Positions 2 to 5,589 of a stretch of DNA of 5,773 bases are shown here, in pieces; positions within the stretch are counted from its first letter, which is position 1; every line of letters starts with the position of its first letter. The notes under the pieces are model-generated. The model was given only the letters and a program-made list of their open reading frames with translations, was not told where the DNA came from and did no database searches. The translations under genes and the position numbers were made by a program. The stretch comes from Acidobacteriota bacterium (GTDB taxonomy: Bacteria > Acidobacteriota > Blastocatellia > Pyrinomonadales > Pyrinomonadaceae): assembly GCA_003222835.1 (NCBI GenBank), contig QHXE01000204.1, forward strand, positions 1 through 5,773, given 5' to 3'.

Positions 2-493
2 TGGAGAGTTGCGCTCGATCGCGGCACCAGTAATCCGCAACCCTCTGGTCCAATCGCGCCCTTGCAATTCCCGAAAGACGAAGGGCCGGTAACTAAGAAA
101 GTCGATGTTTATGCTGCGACTGGACGCGCATTGCTGCTGAACTTAGAAGCTGAGTTTTCAAACGCGTCATCTTCGCAAGGGATCGAAAAGGCATTTCATT
201 CTTATTTAGCCGATGATGCCAGGTTATTTCGCGAGAATAGCTTTCCGGCAGTCGGCAAGCAGGCAGCGCTCGCCCTGCTCTCAACCAAGAAAGGAATTCT
301 CAGGTGGCAACCAACAATGGCCGACATTTCTCACTCGGGCGACTTGGGCTACACCTACGGCATGTACGATCTCAAGGGCGCAAGCGCTGATCAAAAGCCT
401 GAGCATGGTAATTATGTTCGCGTTTGGAAAAGACAAATGAATGGCCGATGGAAAGTCGTTATCGACATCCTGAATCCAATGCCTTCATCCTAA
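2..493 (+). CDS. NTF2-like (DUF4440/SnoaL-type) protein, 5'-partial
   Basis: The frame is open from base 2 to the TAA at 491-493, giving 163 residues with no start seen, so I annotate it as cut by the window edge. A TTG at 62 could serve as a start, but the residues before it look like real protein. The C-terminal end, with YVRVWKRQ, then GRWKVVIDILNP, is the closing strand pattern of DUF4440/SnoaL-like NTF2-fold domains. That domain spans roughly residues 43-160 of the visible part and is near full length. The first visible residues, WRVALDRGTSNP, resemble the same closing motif, so a first NTF2-like domain may end here, making this a tandem-domain protein. Such domains form small cone-shaped folds that bind ligands or act as enzymes; no catalytic residues can be assigned. 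The promoter downstream suggests it is not part of the ABC cassette. Family call fairly sure, function unknown. Confidence 0.72.
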   Translation, partial: WRVALDRGTSNPQPSGPIAPLQFPKDEGPVTKKVDVYAATGRALLLNLEAEFSNASSSQGIEKAFHSYLADDARLFRENSFPAVGKQAALALLSTKKGILRWQPTMADISHSGDLGYTYGMYDLKGASADQKPEHGNYVRVWKRQMNGRWKVVIDILNPMPSS

Positions 494-614: not shown

Positions 615-1607
615 ATGATAAGCGTCAAAGAACTAACGAAAAGATATGCCCGCAACCTTGCGGTCGACCACATTTCTTTTGAAGTAGCGAAAGGTGAAAT
701 TGTCGGCTTTCTGGGCCCGAACGGCGCCGGGAAGACGACCACGATGCGCATGCTGACTGGGTTTCTGTTGCCGACTTCGGGCACGGCCACGGTCGCGGGA
801 TTCGATGTCCTCGAAAAACCGCTCGAGGTCAAAAAGCGCATCGGATACTTACCGGAAACGCCGCCGCTATATCACGAGATGATCACCGACGAATACTTGT
901 CGTTTGTCGGCAAGCTAAAGGGTTTGTCCGGGGCCGAATTAACCCAGCGCATCGATCATGTTTGCGAGCGCTGCGCCATCACGGATGTTAAAAAGAAGCA
1001 ACTCGGTAAGCTGTCGCGGGGTTATCGCCAGCGCGTCGGGCTGGCCCAGGCTATCATTCACAATCCTGAAGTGTTGATACTTGACGAGCCTACCGCGGGA
1101 CTGGATCCGAAGCAGATCAATGAAACCCGCGATTTGATCAAGGGTCTGGCCGGCGATCATACGATAATTCTCAGCACGCACATTCTCCCCGAAGTCGAGC
1201 AGACCTGTGAGCAAGTCGTCATCATCAACAACGGTAAGATCGTGGCTACGGATTCTGTCCGCAATTTGCGGAGCCGTGCTCGCGGCGGCGAGTCCGTGAT
1301 CGTTGAAGTCGGGGGCGGTGACGGCGGCCTCGAAACCGAAGATGTGCGCCAACGTTTGGCGCAGATCGCGGGTGTGAGCAACGTAACGCTCAAGGAGAGC
1401 CACGATGGCCACTACACATTCGAGATTGAAAGCGAGAAGGATTTCGTGCGCGGCGATCTCGCGCGCGCGGTGGTGGCATCCGGCTGGGAACTCAACGAAC
1501 TGCGGGCCACGGCGATGAGCCTCGAAGAGATCTTTCTGCAACTGACTCGCGAGGAAGCGGGGGCTAAAGTTGAGAAGCCGGCGGCAGAGAAAATGAAAAC
1601 GTTTTGA
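615..1607 (+). CDS. ABC transporter ATP-binding protein, GldA/NatA-like (ABC-2 exporter type)
   Basis: This 330-residue protein is the cytoplasmic ATPase of an ABC-2 type exporter. The complete nucleotide-binding domain is visible: Walker A GPNGAGKTT (34-42), a Q-loop region GYLPE (77-81) where Glu replaces the usual Gln, signature LSRGYRQRVGLAQA (133-146) in place of LSGGQ, Walker B VLILDEP (153-159), D-loop AGLD (161-164) and H-loop STH with His189. The LS-K/R-GYRQR form of the signature is typical of GldA-like and related ABC-2 ATPases. After about residue 210 comes the C-terminal extension found in this subfamily (DUF4162-like). It ends in a charged tail. The start at 615 places the conserved beta strand (ISVKELTKRY) right at the N-terminus, with a weak purine-rich ribosome site (AAAAGAGA, 602-609) before it. 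It is the first gene of the cassette and should pair with the permease at 1894. The substrate cannot be read from the sequence. Confidence 0.95.
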   Translation: MISVKELTKRYARNLAVDHISFEVAKGEIVGFLGPNGAGKTTTMRMLTGFLLPTSGTATVAGFDVLEKPLEVKKRIGYLPETPPLYHEMITDEYLSFVGKLKGLSGAELTQRIDHVCERCAITDVKKKQLGKLSRGYRQRVGLAQAIIHNPEVLILDEPTAGLDPKQINETRDLIKGLAGDHTIILSTHILPEVEQTCEQVVIINNGKIVATDSVRNLRSRARGGESVIVEVGGGDGGLETEDVRQRLAQIAGVSNVTLKESHDGHYTFEIESEKDFVRGDLARAVVASGWELNELRATAMSLEEIFLQLTREEAGAKVEKPAAEKMKTF

Positions 1608-1893: not shown

Positions 1894-2661
1894 ATGAGAA
1901 ACATTTTCATCATCTGTCGCAAGGAACTGCGCAGTTATTTCGTTTCACCCATCGCTTATCTGCTCCTCACGATGTTTGCTCTGATCTTCGGGTTTTTCTT
2001 TTGGAACTCGCTGGGGTACTTCGTGCTCATGGGCATGCAATCGCAGATGCGCGGCGAGTCATTTCCAATGAATCTGAACGAGCAAATCGTACGGCCGCTG
2101 TTATCGAACGTGGGTGTGATTGGACTGTTCTTTATTCCCCTGATCTCCATGCGTCTGTTTGCCGAAGAGAAGCGTAGTGGAACGATCGAGCTGCTAACTA
2201 CTTCGCCGATTCGCGACATTGAAGTGATTGTCGGCAAGTGGCTGGCCGCGGTGGCGCTCTATGCGTGTCTGCTGCTGGTCACGGCGGTGAATTTTCTTTT
2301 CCTTTTCAAGTATGGCAACCCGGATTGGAAGCCGCTTGCGATCGGTTATCTGGGGCTTTTCCTGCAAGCCGGAAGTCTTTTAGCCATTGGCACGTTTATC
2401 TCCTCGATGACAAAAAATCAGATCATCGCCGGCGCAGTCACGTTTGGCGTTTGCATAATCCTTTGGGTGCTCGAGTGGGTCAGCGGCTATGAAACTGCCG
2501 CCTGGGCCAAAGTGCTCGCGTACATTTCGGTCATGACGCATTACGAGTCTTTCGGCAAAGGGGTGCTCGATTTAAAGGATGCCATCTACTATGCGACCCT
2601 GATTTTCGTGGGATTGTTTCTCACCTCTCGGTCCGTTGAATCCCTGCGCTGGAGGTCATAA
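1894..2661 (+). CDS. ABC-2 type transporter permease, GldF-like
   Basis: The 255-residue inner-membrane permease is predicted to form the channel half of the ABC exporter with the ATPase at 615. Six hydrophobic segments are visible at about residues 19-39, 70-88, 116-137, 147-170, 176-196 and 230-244. The cytoplasmic loop after segment 2 carries the family hallmark MRLFAEEKRSGTIELL (86-101) followed by TSPI. The N-terminus RKELRSYFVSPIAY is also typical of the GldF/ABC2_membrane_2 type. I chose ATG 1894 because the longer in-frame start at 1858 lies inside the arm of the upstream repeat and would add twelve polar residues (MRREC...) not expected in the family. No strong Shine-Dalgarno is visible before 1894; only AGAGAG at 1873-1878, rather far away. 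The stop is followed directly by the next gene's ATG, so translation is probably coupled. Size is normal for the family. Confidence 0.92.
   Translation: MRNIFIICRKELRSYFVSPIAYLLLTMFALIFGFFFWNSLGYFVLMGMQSQMRGESFPMNLNEQIVRPLLSNVGVIGLFFIPLISMRLFAEEKRSGTIELLTTSPIRDIEVIVGKWLAAVALYACLLLVTAVNFLFLFKYGNPDWKPLAIGYLGLFLQAGSLLAIGTFISSMTKNQIIAGAVTFGVCIILWVLEWVSGYETAAWAKVLAYISVMTHYESFGKGVLDLKDAIYYATLIFVGLFLTSRSVESLRWRS
2651..2656 (+). promoter_or_regulatory. Ribosome binding site of the GldG-like gene
   Basis: GGAGGT lies five bases before ATG 2662, inside the last codons of the permease gene. It is the best Shine-Dalgarno in the cassette. It fixes the GldG-like start and supports coupled translation of permease and auxiliary protein. 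Confidence 0.8.
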
Positions 2662-4038
2662 ATGAACACTGAGTTACTTAAGGCCAGACAGACGAAGTTC
2701 GCGGTTTACATCGGCATCTACGTAGCGATAATTATGACTGCTGTGGTGGTGGTAAATGTGCTCGCGAATCGTTATGACAAATCGTATGACGGGACCGCAA
2801 ACAAGCGCTACAGTCTTTCGGATCAGACTAAGAAGATTGTCAGAGAATTGAACCAGGACGCGACGATACGTTATTTCGATCAGAGCACCAGATACAATCA
2901 AGCGAAAGATATTCTGGATCAATATTCGAACCTCTCGCCGAAAATTCATATCGAATACGTCGATCCCGACAAGAGTCCTGAAGTTGCGCGCGCCGCCGGC
3001 ATCAAGAATTACGGCGCGGCGGTCGTAGAAATTGGCGGCAAAAAGGAAGAGGCAAAGAGTCTGACGGAAGAAGGCATCACCGGTGCTTTCATTCGCGTTT
3101 TGAAAAATAGGACCCGCACGGTTTGTTTTGTGAGCGGCAGCGGCGAGCATCAGATCGATGATTCCGATCGCAACGGCTATTCGCGATTCAAGGAACTGCT
3201 CGGGAAAGATGAATACGAATCGAAATCGATCAATCTGCTCCAGAAAGCTGAGATTCCAGCCGACTGCACGGTTATAGTGGTCGGCGGACCTACGAGCGAT
3301 TACCAACAGCCGGAAGTCGACGCGATCAAGACATACGTCGAAGGCGGCGGGCGGGCACTGTTTATGCTCGACGCGCCGTTGAAGCTGGGTAAATCAGAGA
3401 TCGCCGACAACGATGTGCTGGCAAAACAATTGGAGAATTGGGGAGTGACGCTGAACAAGGATCTGATTCTGGATCTCAATCCCGTCGGACAGCTTGCCGG
3501 TCTCGGGCCGCAGGTCGCACTGGTCTCGACCTATGAGAGCCATCCAATCGTTAACGAGATGAAGGGCAACGCCACCGGCTTTCCGCTATCGCGGTCGATG
3601 GAGATCAAGAGCGGCGACAAGACCACAGTTGAAAAGCTCTTTACTTCTTCTGAGACGAGTGTGGCGACCGCGAATCTCAGCTCGCCGGAGATCGATCCGA
3701 ACGATCCGAAGAATAAAAAAGGGCCACTGATAATTGCGGCCGCTGGTTCCTACAACACGGGCAAAGAGAACTCGCAGGGACGATTTGTAGTGGTGGGTAG
3801 CTCGTCATGGGCGGCGAACTCGTTCATCAATTTCAACGGCAATCGTGACTTGGTTCTGAACACGATGAACTGGCTTTCGTCGGACGAAGACCTGATCTCG
3901 ATTCGGCCAAAGGAACAAGACGATCGGCGGATCACTATGACGCAATCGCAATTCAGTTGGGTGCGTTTGACAAGTCAGTTTCTGCTGCCGCTGGTGGTGA
4001 TTGTATTCGGCGTTTCGGTGTGGTGGCGCAGAAGATAA
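2662..4038 (+). CDS. GldG-family ABC-transporter auxiliary protein (ABC_transp_aux), membrane-anchored
   Basis: This 458-residue protein has an N-terminal membrane segment (about 14-35), a large soluble region and a C-terminal membrane segment (about 437-454) ending in WWRRR. The soluble part is therefore most likely periplasmic, held at both ends next to the permease. After the first segment comes a region with KRYSLSDQTKKIVREL (48-63), then IRYFDQSTRYNQAKDIL (69-85) and IHIEYVDPDKSPEVA (95-109), as in the DUF7088/GldG N-terminal domain. Next is the ABC_transp_aux (PF09822-type) domain, with FVSGSGEH (156-163), VVGGPTSDY (206-214) and a YVEGGGRALFMLDAP stretch (225-239). These resemble the GHGE and GGR-LL-LD patterns of the family. 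In Bacteroidetes, GldG works with GldA and GldF and is needed for gliding and secretion. Outside that phylum the role is not established. The protein is somewhat shorter than typical Bacteroidetes GldG. The gene directly abuts the permease stop. Confidence 0.9.
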   Translation: MNTELLKARQTKFAVYIGIYVAIIMTAVVVVNVLANRYDKSYDGTANKRYSLSDQTKKIVRELNQDATIRYFDQSTRYNQAKDILDQYSNLSPKIHIEYVDPDKSPEVARAAGIKNYGAAVVEIGGKKEEAKSLTEEGITGAFIRVLKNRTRTVCFVSGSGEHQIDDSDRNGYSRFKELLGKDEYESKSINLLQKAEIPADCTVIVVGGPTSDYQQPEVDAIKTYVEGGGRALFMLDAPLKLGKSEIADNDVLAKQLENWGVTLNKDLILDLNPVGQLAGLGPQVALVSTYESHPIVNEMKGNATGFPLSRSMEIKSGDKTTVEKLFTSSETSVATANLSSPEIDPNDPKNKKGPLIIAAAGSYNTGKENSQGRFVVVGSSSWAANSFINFNGNRDLVLNTMNWLSSDEDLISIRPKEQDDRRITMTQSQFSWVRLTSQFLLPLVVIVFGVSVWWRRR

Positions 4039-4039
4039 G

Positions 4040-4096
4040 ATGAAGAACCGAGGATTGATTATCGCCGCTTTCGTTCTAGCCGCGCTGCTGGGCCTG
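4040..4096 (+). repeat. Direct repeat, upstream copy
   Basis: These 57 bases match 4210-4266 at 50 positions without gaps, offset by 170 bases. Five of the seven differences are at third codon positions and two at first; none is at a second position. The match ends exactly where the GTCGC-TAC-GCGAC hairpin begins. Confidence 0.85.
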
Positions 4097-4120
4097 TCGC
4101 TACGCGACGAGAGGAATTAA
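4040..4120 (+). pseudogene. Truncated duplicate of the DUF4340 gene start (26-residue membrane peptide ORF)
   Basis: An ATG one base after the GldG-like stop (TAAG-ATG) opens a 26-codon frame ending with TAA at 4118-4120. Its first 19 residues (MKNRGLIIAAFVLAALLGL) match the N-terminus of the DUF4340 protein at 17 of 19 positions. Similarity then stops and the frame runs into a REP-like hairpin, ending SLRDERN. It is either a broken remnant of the original or a duplicated DUF4340 gene, or a small membrane peptide still being made by translational coupling. The ribosome site is weak (AGAAG at 4030-4034, inside the previous gene). Its position directly behind the upstream stop suggests this was the ancestral start site of the fourth cassette gene. 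Confidence 0.55.
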
Positions 4121-4179
4121 TCTCGCCGTTGTCCCGGCGTTGAAACGCCGGGCTAAACTCATGCCGACGCTACGCGTCG
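4096..4179. repeat. REP-like cluster of three hairpins
   Basis: Three perfect stems follow each other: GTCGC-TAC-GCGAC (4096-4108), CCCGGCGT-TGAA-ACGCCGGG (4133-4152) and CGACGC-TAC-GCGTCG (4165-4179). The two outer hairpins share the loop and its surroundings (CGCTACGCG or near), so they bracket the central one like a REP doublet. The central hairpin contains CGTTGAAACG, which also occurs in the inner arm of the repeat at 1680-1863. No T-tract follows, so this is not a typical terminator, although such a cluster could lower read-through or protect the upstream mRNA. Arrays of this kind are usually mobilised by REP-associated tyrosine transposases, none of which is present here. Confidence 0.75.
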
Positions 4180-4209
4180 CCGAACTGATTCTCAAATTTG
4201 GGAAAGTTA

Positions 4210-4266
4210 ATGAAGAACCGTGGACTTCTTATCGCCGCTTTAGTTCTCGCCGCGCTGCTGGGCCTT
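4210..4266 (+). repeat. Direct repeat, downstream copy (start of the DUF4340 gene)
   Basis: This is the partner of 4040-4096, with 50 of 57 bases identical. It forms the first 19 codons of the intact gene, including the membrane anchor. Confidence 0.85.
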
Positions 4267-5589
4267 CTTTACTGGTCCAATCGCCATCCGCGAAGTGATA
4301 ACAGCAACCCGGCTTTGCCGACTCCGTCGGAACCGGCGCCGAACATTCTTAGATTTAATGAGGGAGATATTAACAAGATCGAACTCAAGAAGAAGGGCGG
4401 CGATCAAATCGTTATTGCCAAAGACAGCAATGGCAAGTGGCAAATTACTTCGCAGAAATTGATGGGCGTCGACGACTCTGCGATTTCGAGTATGTTGTCG
4501 ACTCTATCGCCGCTTAAGTCCGAACGTTTAGTAGAAGAGAAGGCCGGCAACGTGGCCCAGTATGGGCTCGCCGAACCTAAGCTCGAAGTCACCATCACCG
4601 ATAAGAACAACACTGTGAGCAAACTGCTGATTGGCGACGATACGCCGACGGGCAGTGGCGCCTACGTTCAGCTTGCCGGCGACCCGCGCGTGTTCACGAT
4701 CGCGAGTTTCACCAAGACCAGCCTCGATAAAGGCTTAAACGATCTGCGCGACAAGAGGTTGATCACGGCCGATGCGGACAAGATCACTCGTCTTGAACTA
4801 ACAGTCAAACAACAGACCATCGAGTTTAGTCGCGATAAAGAGCAGTGGCAGATTTTGAAACCCAAGCCGCTGCGCGCCGACGGCGCAAAGGTTGCCGAAC
4901 TCGTGCGCAAAATCACTGATGCGAAGATGGATCTGACTGCCGCGTCCAGCGAAACCCCTGGCTCATCTCCAACGCCCGGGGCGTCGCCGTCCAAGGCTCC
5001 AACGCCGGCTATCAAGAACGACCCCGCCTCAGCGTTTGCTTCGGGCTCCGTGATCGCTACGGTCAAGGTAACAACCGACTCGGGTACACAGCAAATCGAA
5101 GTGCGTAAGAACAAAGACGATTATTACGCCAAGTCGAGTGTCACTGACGGCGTCTACAAAGTTGCTGCCGAGTTGGGCCAAGCTCTCGACAAAAAGCTGG
5201 ACGATTTTCGCAATCAGAAGGTTTTCGACTTTGGCTCCGCCGATCCAAGCAAGATCGAAATCCACGACGGATCGAAGACCTACGTCTTAAGCAAGAGTGG
5301 CGATGATTGGACGGCAGCAGACGGCAAGAAATACGAGAAGGCCGGCGTGGACGCCCTCGTGAGCAAGCTTCGCGATCTAAAAGCCACAGATTTTGCCGAC
5401 TCCGGTTTCGGCGCCTCTGCGCTGCAAATGACGATCACTTCCGATGATGGAAAGCGCACGGAAAAAGTCTCACTCTCGAAAGGCGCCAAGAACGCCTTGG
5501 CCCGCCGCGAGGGCGAATCTTCGCTTTACGTACTCGATGTGAATTTAGTCGCGGATATCCAAAAGTTGTTGAGCGATCTGAAGAGTTAG
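4210..5589 (+). CDS. DUF4340 domain protein, membrane-anchored, with three internal repeats
   Basis: The 459-residue protein begins with MKNRG, a hydrophobic anchor at about 6-21 without a lipobox cysteine, and a proline-rich spacer (33-44). The remainder is probably periplasmic. It shows alternating modules. The A modules (about 54-108, 190-244, 346-397) have the form K-I-E-L ... W-x-I/A ... L-x-x-L. The B modules (about 124-184, 281-341, 405-459) have strand-rich starts such as LEVTIT, ATVKVTT and LQMTIT. This is the DUF4340 (PF14238-type) pattern. A Ser/Pro/Thr-rich linker (about 246-278) separates A2 from B2. ATG 4210 was chosen over an in-frame TTG at 4198 because the duplicate at 4040 starts at the same Met. 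GGGAAAG (4200-4206) is a modest ribosome site. DUF4340 genes are often found behind GldG-like genes, so it is probably a partner of the exporter. Its biochemical role is unknown. Confidence 0.88.
   Translation: MKNRGLLIAALVLAALLGLLYWSNRHPRSDNSNPALPTPSEPAPNILRFNEGDINKIELKKKGGDQIVIAKDSNGKWQITSQKLMGVDDSAISSMLSTLSPLKSERLVEEKAGNVAQYGLAEPKLEVTITDKNNTVSKLLIGDDTPTGSGAYVQLAGDPRVFTIASFTKTSLDKGLNDLRDKRLITADADKITRLELTVKQQTIEFSRDKEQWQILKPKPLRADGAKVAELVRKITDAKMDLTAASSETPGSSPTPGASPSKAPTPAIKNDPASAFASGSVIATVKVTTDSGTQQIEVRKNKDDYYAKSSVTDGVYKVAAELGQALDKKLDDFRNQKVFDFGSADPSKIEIHDGSKTYVLSKSGDDWTAADGKKYEKAGVDALVSKLRDLKATDFADSGFGASALQMTITSDDGKRTEKVSLSKGAKNALARREGESSLYVLDVNLVADIQKLLSDLKS

Follow-up and report, generated by a model that had tools for sequence, protein, structure and literature searches.

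In enterobacteria, hairpin repeats of the REP/BIME type are inserted between the genes of operons, and REPs are known in other systems to affect mRNA stability or read-through. In REP-RAYT systems (REPtrons) and in the TIRtrons of TIR-associated tyrosine transposases, small palindromic repeats occupy intergenic positions, and some of them bracket a Y1 (HuH) transposase gene as inverted pairs. For the acidobacterium Koribacter, Di Nocera and colleagues described a TIR family of this sort that is present in repeated copies and associated with a tyrosine transposase (PMC3733652); the repeat presented below may be akin to it. Another family, Acido-Lenti-1 (Rfam RF01687), is treated as an RNA or merely listed in the article texts that deal with it, where it is tabulated as a candidate structured RNA (PMC2864571) and, in a recent paper, considered as potentially regulating protease genes (PMC13298647). 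In this literature, supplements aside, we found no statement that the family flanks Y1 transposases.

Here we present an acidobacterial locus, contained in a window (the whole stretch of DNA analysed) of 5,773 nucleotides, in which an Acido-Lenti-1 repeat lies between two co-directional genes of an operon, as enterobacterial REP and BIME elements do. The locus differs from those in an extra copy of the start of the downstream gene, which is absent from 39 other distinct junctions. The closest relative found, designated L001, is a contig of an acidobacterial MAG (genome G001). The features of the window are collected in Table 1. Against the GldA, GldF and GldG models the three transporter genes score 326, 133 and 93 bits, all below the cut-offs of 403, 289 and 390 (the last pair of values being that of the GldG-like gene and the NCBIfam GldG model), and they are therefore named "Gld-like". 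As a separate observation, the gap between the ATPase and permease genes is filled at 1680-1863 by a long inverted repeat with imperfect arms (67% across 194 columns), which has a counterpart in L001 and short parts of which recur in other loci of the same genome; it looks like another repeat family.

Table 1. Features of the 5,773-nt window.
Feature	Position	Strand	Evidence or remark
DUF4440 protein gene, end part	2-493		upstream of the operon
ABC ATPase gene	615-1607	+	operon-like run
Permease gene	1894-2661	+	operon-like run
GldG-like gene (ABC_transp_aux, DUF7088)	2662-4038	+	Pfam PF09822, 7e-31; upstream neighbour of DUF4340
A1, incomplete copy (56 bases) of the start of the DUF4340 gene, upstream of it	4040-4095	+	50/56 identical to 4210-4265
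26-codon open frame (A1 plus left part of REP, stop included)	4040-4120	+	read from the sequence; predicted frame
REP unit, three hairpins	4096-4179	+	BLAST 79-85% over full length, 8 distinct G001 copies; layout as in repeats flanking Y1 transposase genes in relatives
Rfam RF01687 (Acido-Lenti-1) match, right part of REP	4133-4179	+	37.7 bits, gathering cut-off 37, E 5.3e-6
Leader between REP and intact ATG, 30 nt	4180-4209	+	
Intact DUF4340 gene, 459 aa	4210-5589	+	Pfam PF14238, 9.5e-52; 86% identity to L001
A2, start copy belonging to the intact DUF4340 gene	4210-4265	+	50/56 identical to A1

The duplicated gene start is confirmed as a real feature of the window. The two copies, spaced 170 bases apart, are recovered by self-BLAST of the window with an E value of 7.5e-16, and the next-best ungapped 57-mer for the DUF4340 start within the window has 27 of 57 matches. 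The first-pass annotation had given the duplication as 57 bases with 50 identities; the duplication stands, with its extent corrected to 56 bases, since the 57th base is a mismatch and already belongs to a hairpin. Indeed, base 4096 opens the first REP hairpin (GTCGCTACGCGAC), so that the similarity ends flush with the element, and A1 begins one base past the TAA of the GldG-like gene (4036-4038). Translation of the frame formed by A1 and the left part of the REP predicts a 26-residue, mostly hydrophobic peptide. A1 is probably without function.

The annotation had also described a REP-like hairpin cluster between the copies, a description upheld by three predicted hairpins (4096-4108, 4133-4152 and 4165-4179 in the centroid fold), by the Rfam match and by the recovery of the unit elsewhere by BLAST. 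As DNA, the stretch 4085-4215 folds with a z score of -2.9. The Rfam match spans model positions 1-46 of 46 and passes the cut-off marginally; the window differs from the Rfam family in its setting at what looks like a mobile DNA end and in a further hairpin that precedes the match on its left. A CGTC motif, one of the two tags (GTAG or CGTC) that adjoin the hairpin in REP-RAYT proper, is located inside the third hairpin. Compared with REP-RAYT systems and TIRtrons, the differences are that three hairpins make up each unit, and that the window holds a lone unit without a transposase.

The 30-nt leader that separates the REP from the intact ATG was compared with several possible sources. No match was found to the flanks of other repeat copies, nor to the 3' end of DUF4340, the 184 bases past the gene (all the sequence that the window holds on that side, and hence the limit of this comparison) or the end of the GldG-like gene. 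The best other 30-mer matches 18 of 30 bases in the window and 17 of 30 in L001, and the GldG end 7 of 30. We also considered the leader as a conserved right extension of the REP and rejected this: it scores 5.5 against 14 repeat tails of G001, a value equalled or bettered by 469 of 1000 shuffles, while those tails are mutually alike with a mean score of 10.5.

Acido-Lenti-1 repeats and Y1 transposases were searched in ten genomes, G001 and nine of the better-matching clade. Among the matches listed, with at most 150 candidates scored per genome, RF01687 was present at E <= 0.001 in nine of the ten at 1-60 per genome (45 in G001, 57 in G606, 60 in G816, one in G551 and zero in G587), so that the repeat is multicopy per genome in relatives, as in REPtrons and TIRtrons. 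Y1-transposase matches likewise occurred in nine genomes, and G587 was without either. Inverted pairs of RF01687 matches above the cut-off, with one member on each side of the Y1 gene, were found at six of 30 loci in five genomes (L159, L160, L162, L166, L174 and L182, with one additional repeat on the right side of L160 and L182). The inverted arrangement around a Y1 gene known from REPtrons and TIRtrons is thus shared by a minority, and the remaining 24 loci had no match above the cut-off. A looser search of six of these negative loci gave weak matches in three, in L175 on both sides. Judged by eye, the unit around the six Y1 genes is laid out as in the window, with a hairpin on the left, then some 25 bases and then the Rfam part.

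What sets the transposases of the relatives apart from REP-RAYT proper is a match to the general IS200 model combined with scores under the threshold of the REP-associated one. When six transposases were scanned (two of the frames shortened at an internal Met), three were above and three below the cut-off of the general model, and two were matched by the REP-associated model at 30.3 and 19.6 bits, far below its cut-off of 80; these transposases are therefore not called RAYTs proper. The inverted pairs around Y1 genes and the shared layout suggest to us that the repeat is the terminal sequence of an element of the REP/TIR type, mobilised by a HuH transposase. The Acido-Lenti-1 family is thus probably the mobile DNA end of a REP/TIR transposase element.

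What, then, does the junction look like without the duplication? The survey of GldG-DUF4340 junctions took in 53 loci and the window, the loci being the best per search (at most 30), with the GldG loci of one search represented by L049 and L050; one such search matched 55 of 398 genomes. With L087, L112 and L113 dropped as incomplete, 51 rows were left, 11 of which repeat another row, giving 40 distinct junctions, i.e., the window and 39 others. Within the 600 bases upstream of DUF4340, none of the 39, L001 included, has a second DUF4340 start, the best 57-base match being 22-28 as against 50 in the window. The gap between the two genes ranges from 0 to 340 bp. It measures 55-340 bp in 11 of the 39, and at least five of these 11 have strong hairpins (by eye on folds, with no shuffle control), none with a duplicated start, which indicates that repeats can enter the gap without making duplications.

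In L001, the DUF4340 ATG lies four bases after the stop of the GldG-like gene, as a single start and without a REP. The first-pass annotation had held that a relative of this kind would support insertion of the repeat together with copying of the gene start, and L001 does so. It was the single stretch confirmed among 29 candidates in a scan of genome contigs for close relatives. A GldG match was found in none of the 118 other genomes of G001's family (one of 119 being G001 itself), while matches of up to 74% occur in a different family, that of G149 and G521; a mis-binned contig and horizontal transfer are the suggested alternatives for the operon of G001. L001 could even be a later collapse of two copies.

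A metagenomic protein, P0004, bears on the order of events. It is 88% identical to the DUF4340 protein and carries a 36-residue N-terminal extension before MKNRG, one stretch of which agrees with the REP frame of the window at 13 of 16 residues (LKRRAKLIATLRVDEL vs LKRRAKLMPTLRVAEL). The stretch that follows is of like length to the 30-nt leader (30 versus 31 nt when the count starts at the Val codon where the REP ends) and has two of 10 residues in common with the window frame. The 25 other proteins found with the N-terminal 70 residues of P0004 aligned over at most 49% of those residues, in the MKNRG part alone. The frame of P0004 thus seems to run through a REP similar to the window's and then through a leader of comparable length. 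The REP and leader may be older than the duplicated start; P0004 is known as a protein alone, so A1 may also lie upstream of it. The first-pass annotation could not see this possible order, with the REP first and the extra start second.

The divergence of the copies was approached in two ways, and the results disagree. By pairwise differences over 57 bases, A1 and A2 are the closest pair (7, as against 9 between A2 and L001 and 12 between A1 and L001). In a tree of 17 starts (HKY+G, 56 bases, 14 starts beyond A1, A2 and L001, the junction starts limited to at least 50% protein identity), A1 groups with L001 at a support of 85 that rests on one site. By site pattern, six sites set L001 apart, four A1 and one A2, the rest being three-way. 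That A1 and A2 are sisters was considered from this pattern and rejected, as it does not follow without a root and the tree groups A1 with L001. Given this conflict, we attach no date to the duplication and no firm origin to A1.

With L001 as reference, each of the four changes specific to A1 is synonymous (chance 0.007-0.012; two share one codon). This points to two alleles that were functional genes while they diverged, weakly so given a path-averaged count of 4 synonymous to 3 non-synonymous over 57 bases; one three-way site encodes Phe in A1 and Leu in A2 and L001. Synonymous divergence is 0.29 between A1 and A2 and 0.63 between the whole DUF4340 genes of the window and L001. Along the operon, window and L001 diverge by 0.53 in the ATPase part, 0.62 in the permease, 0.29 in the GldG-like gene and 0.63 in DUF4340, with no clean step at the junction. 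Furthermore, residues 1-80 of the DUF4340 protein are 98% identical to P0002, and residues 161-440 are 92-100% identical to P0001 and 95-100% to P0002, but residues 81-160 (4450-4689) do not exceed 88% identity with any of the 17 relatives compared. On these identities the gene reads as a mosaic among its relatives, which makes exchange between relatives plausible. As an observation in its own right, the synonymous divergence from L001 falls to 0.11-0.13 in codons 76-225 of the GldG-like gene (2887-3336), where recent exchange between lineages and constraint are the alternatives.

The reading that we prefer, at somewhat less than an even chance, is that the junction is the scar of a two-step rearrangement, in which a REP-carrying allele would have been joined with a REP-free start at the left edge of the REP. 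In the first step, a REP of the Acido-Lenti-1/Y1-transposase family would have come to lie in the short GldG-DUF4340 gap, with the 30-nt leader before the ATG, as inferred for P0004. In the second, a REP-free start close behind the GldG stop, as in L001, would have had its base 56 linked to the left foot of that REP. We infer the order of these steps, as well as the mechanism of joining: the latter might be illegitimate recombination with a related allele, or template switching at the hairpins during replication, which would give the same result within one chromosome. The outcome would be a complete DUF4340 gene kept downstream and A1 left as a 26-codon remnant. In the REP-free form, stop and ATG are 1-4 bases apart; with a REP already present between the genes, the similarity therefore has to start at the ATG, a starting point that the other models would need as a coincidence. 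The grouping of A1 with L001 in the tree, one site though it is, would fit an origin of A1 in a REP-free lineage.

The first-pass annotation had left the choice between insertion with copying of the start, which fits best, and decay of a tandem paralogue, which is weakened. In the latter case, the whole DUF4340 gene would have been duplicated in tandem and the first copy lost by deletion except for its initial 56 bases, with the REP at the deletion point. The synonymous A1-only changes, as if A1 had once been in a working gene, and the place of A1, where an operon gene is expected, both speak for this; yet a second start is lacking up to 600 bases upstream in each of the 39 other distinct junctions, and the duplication would need to begin at the ATG. 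A remnant of this kind should also have, before A2, sequence from the 3' side of the first copy, and in the window and L001 the 30 bases before A2 resemble neither the 3' end of DUF4340 nor the stretch of 184 bases beyond it (at best the 18 of 30 given above). With P0004 appearing to have REP and leader directly before an intact start, we consider paralogue decay rather unlikely. The same synonymous changes, and an open frame directly behind the GldG stop, would suit selection on A1 as a leader peptide of 26 codons, with a role in coupling translation or in inserting into the membrane. Such a peptide is hard to reconcile with its absence from the 39 other distinct junctions, the few sites involved, and the intact gene having its own leader, with an ATG 89 bases past the stop of the small frame, and we hold it to be very improbable.

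Transposition of the REP into codon 19, with the event itself duplicating the first 56 bases as a very long target-site duplication, would account for the flush contact of A1 with the left foot of the REP and for the REP-free site of L001. Direct repeats flush at both ends of the insert are expected from such an event; here the right side is not flush, and its 30 extra bases are unlike the flanks of other copies or the GldG end. Among 57 REP loci in relatives, 54 have no flanking direct repeat within 400 bp, by a procedure that recovers the window's own repeat as a positive control, which bears out the annotation's judgement that an ordinary target-site duplication would be far shorter than 57 bp. 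Of these loci 30 are from G001, falling into 26 clusters, so that the 57 are not all independent, and old duplications may have decayed. The three exceptions (L131, L137 and L147) are not flush with the unit, and their repeats occur three, two and four times, respectively, in their own loci. Apart from the six pairs that flank transposases, no identical stretch is longer than 6-9 bases, and IS200/IS605 elements are reported not to make larger target duplications (PMC2817692). We therefore give this model very little weight. It is less improbable, but still unlikely, that the junction is an assembly chimera of two strain variants joined within the repeat: repeats break assemblies, the window is known here as contig sequence alone, and the divergence of A1 and A2 is strain-like. 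Gene order and reading frames are intact, though, and a join inside the REP would still require a real A1-REP joint in some genome.

The scar is thus most likely a one-off in the material examined, at a repeat-prone operon gap, and no new system. By analogy with REPs elsewhere, the repeat may alter the ratio of the GldG-like and DUF4340 proteins via mRNA stability or read-through. A broader proposal, which we regard as doubtful, is that Acido-Lenti-1/Y1 repeats might promote template switching that copies a neighbouring start, sprouting short start-peptide frames in operon gaps, and that the whole "RNA" family would be the end of a HuH-transposase element and not primarily an RNA. What the duplicated start mainly teaches is that repeat-bearing operon gaps rearrange. 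The lead on Acido-Lenti-1 as a transposase end matters more than this single scar: given the inverted pairs around some Y1 genes, the annotation of the family as an sRNA gene deserves re-examination.
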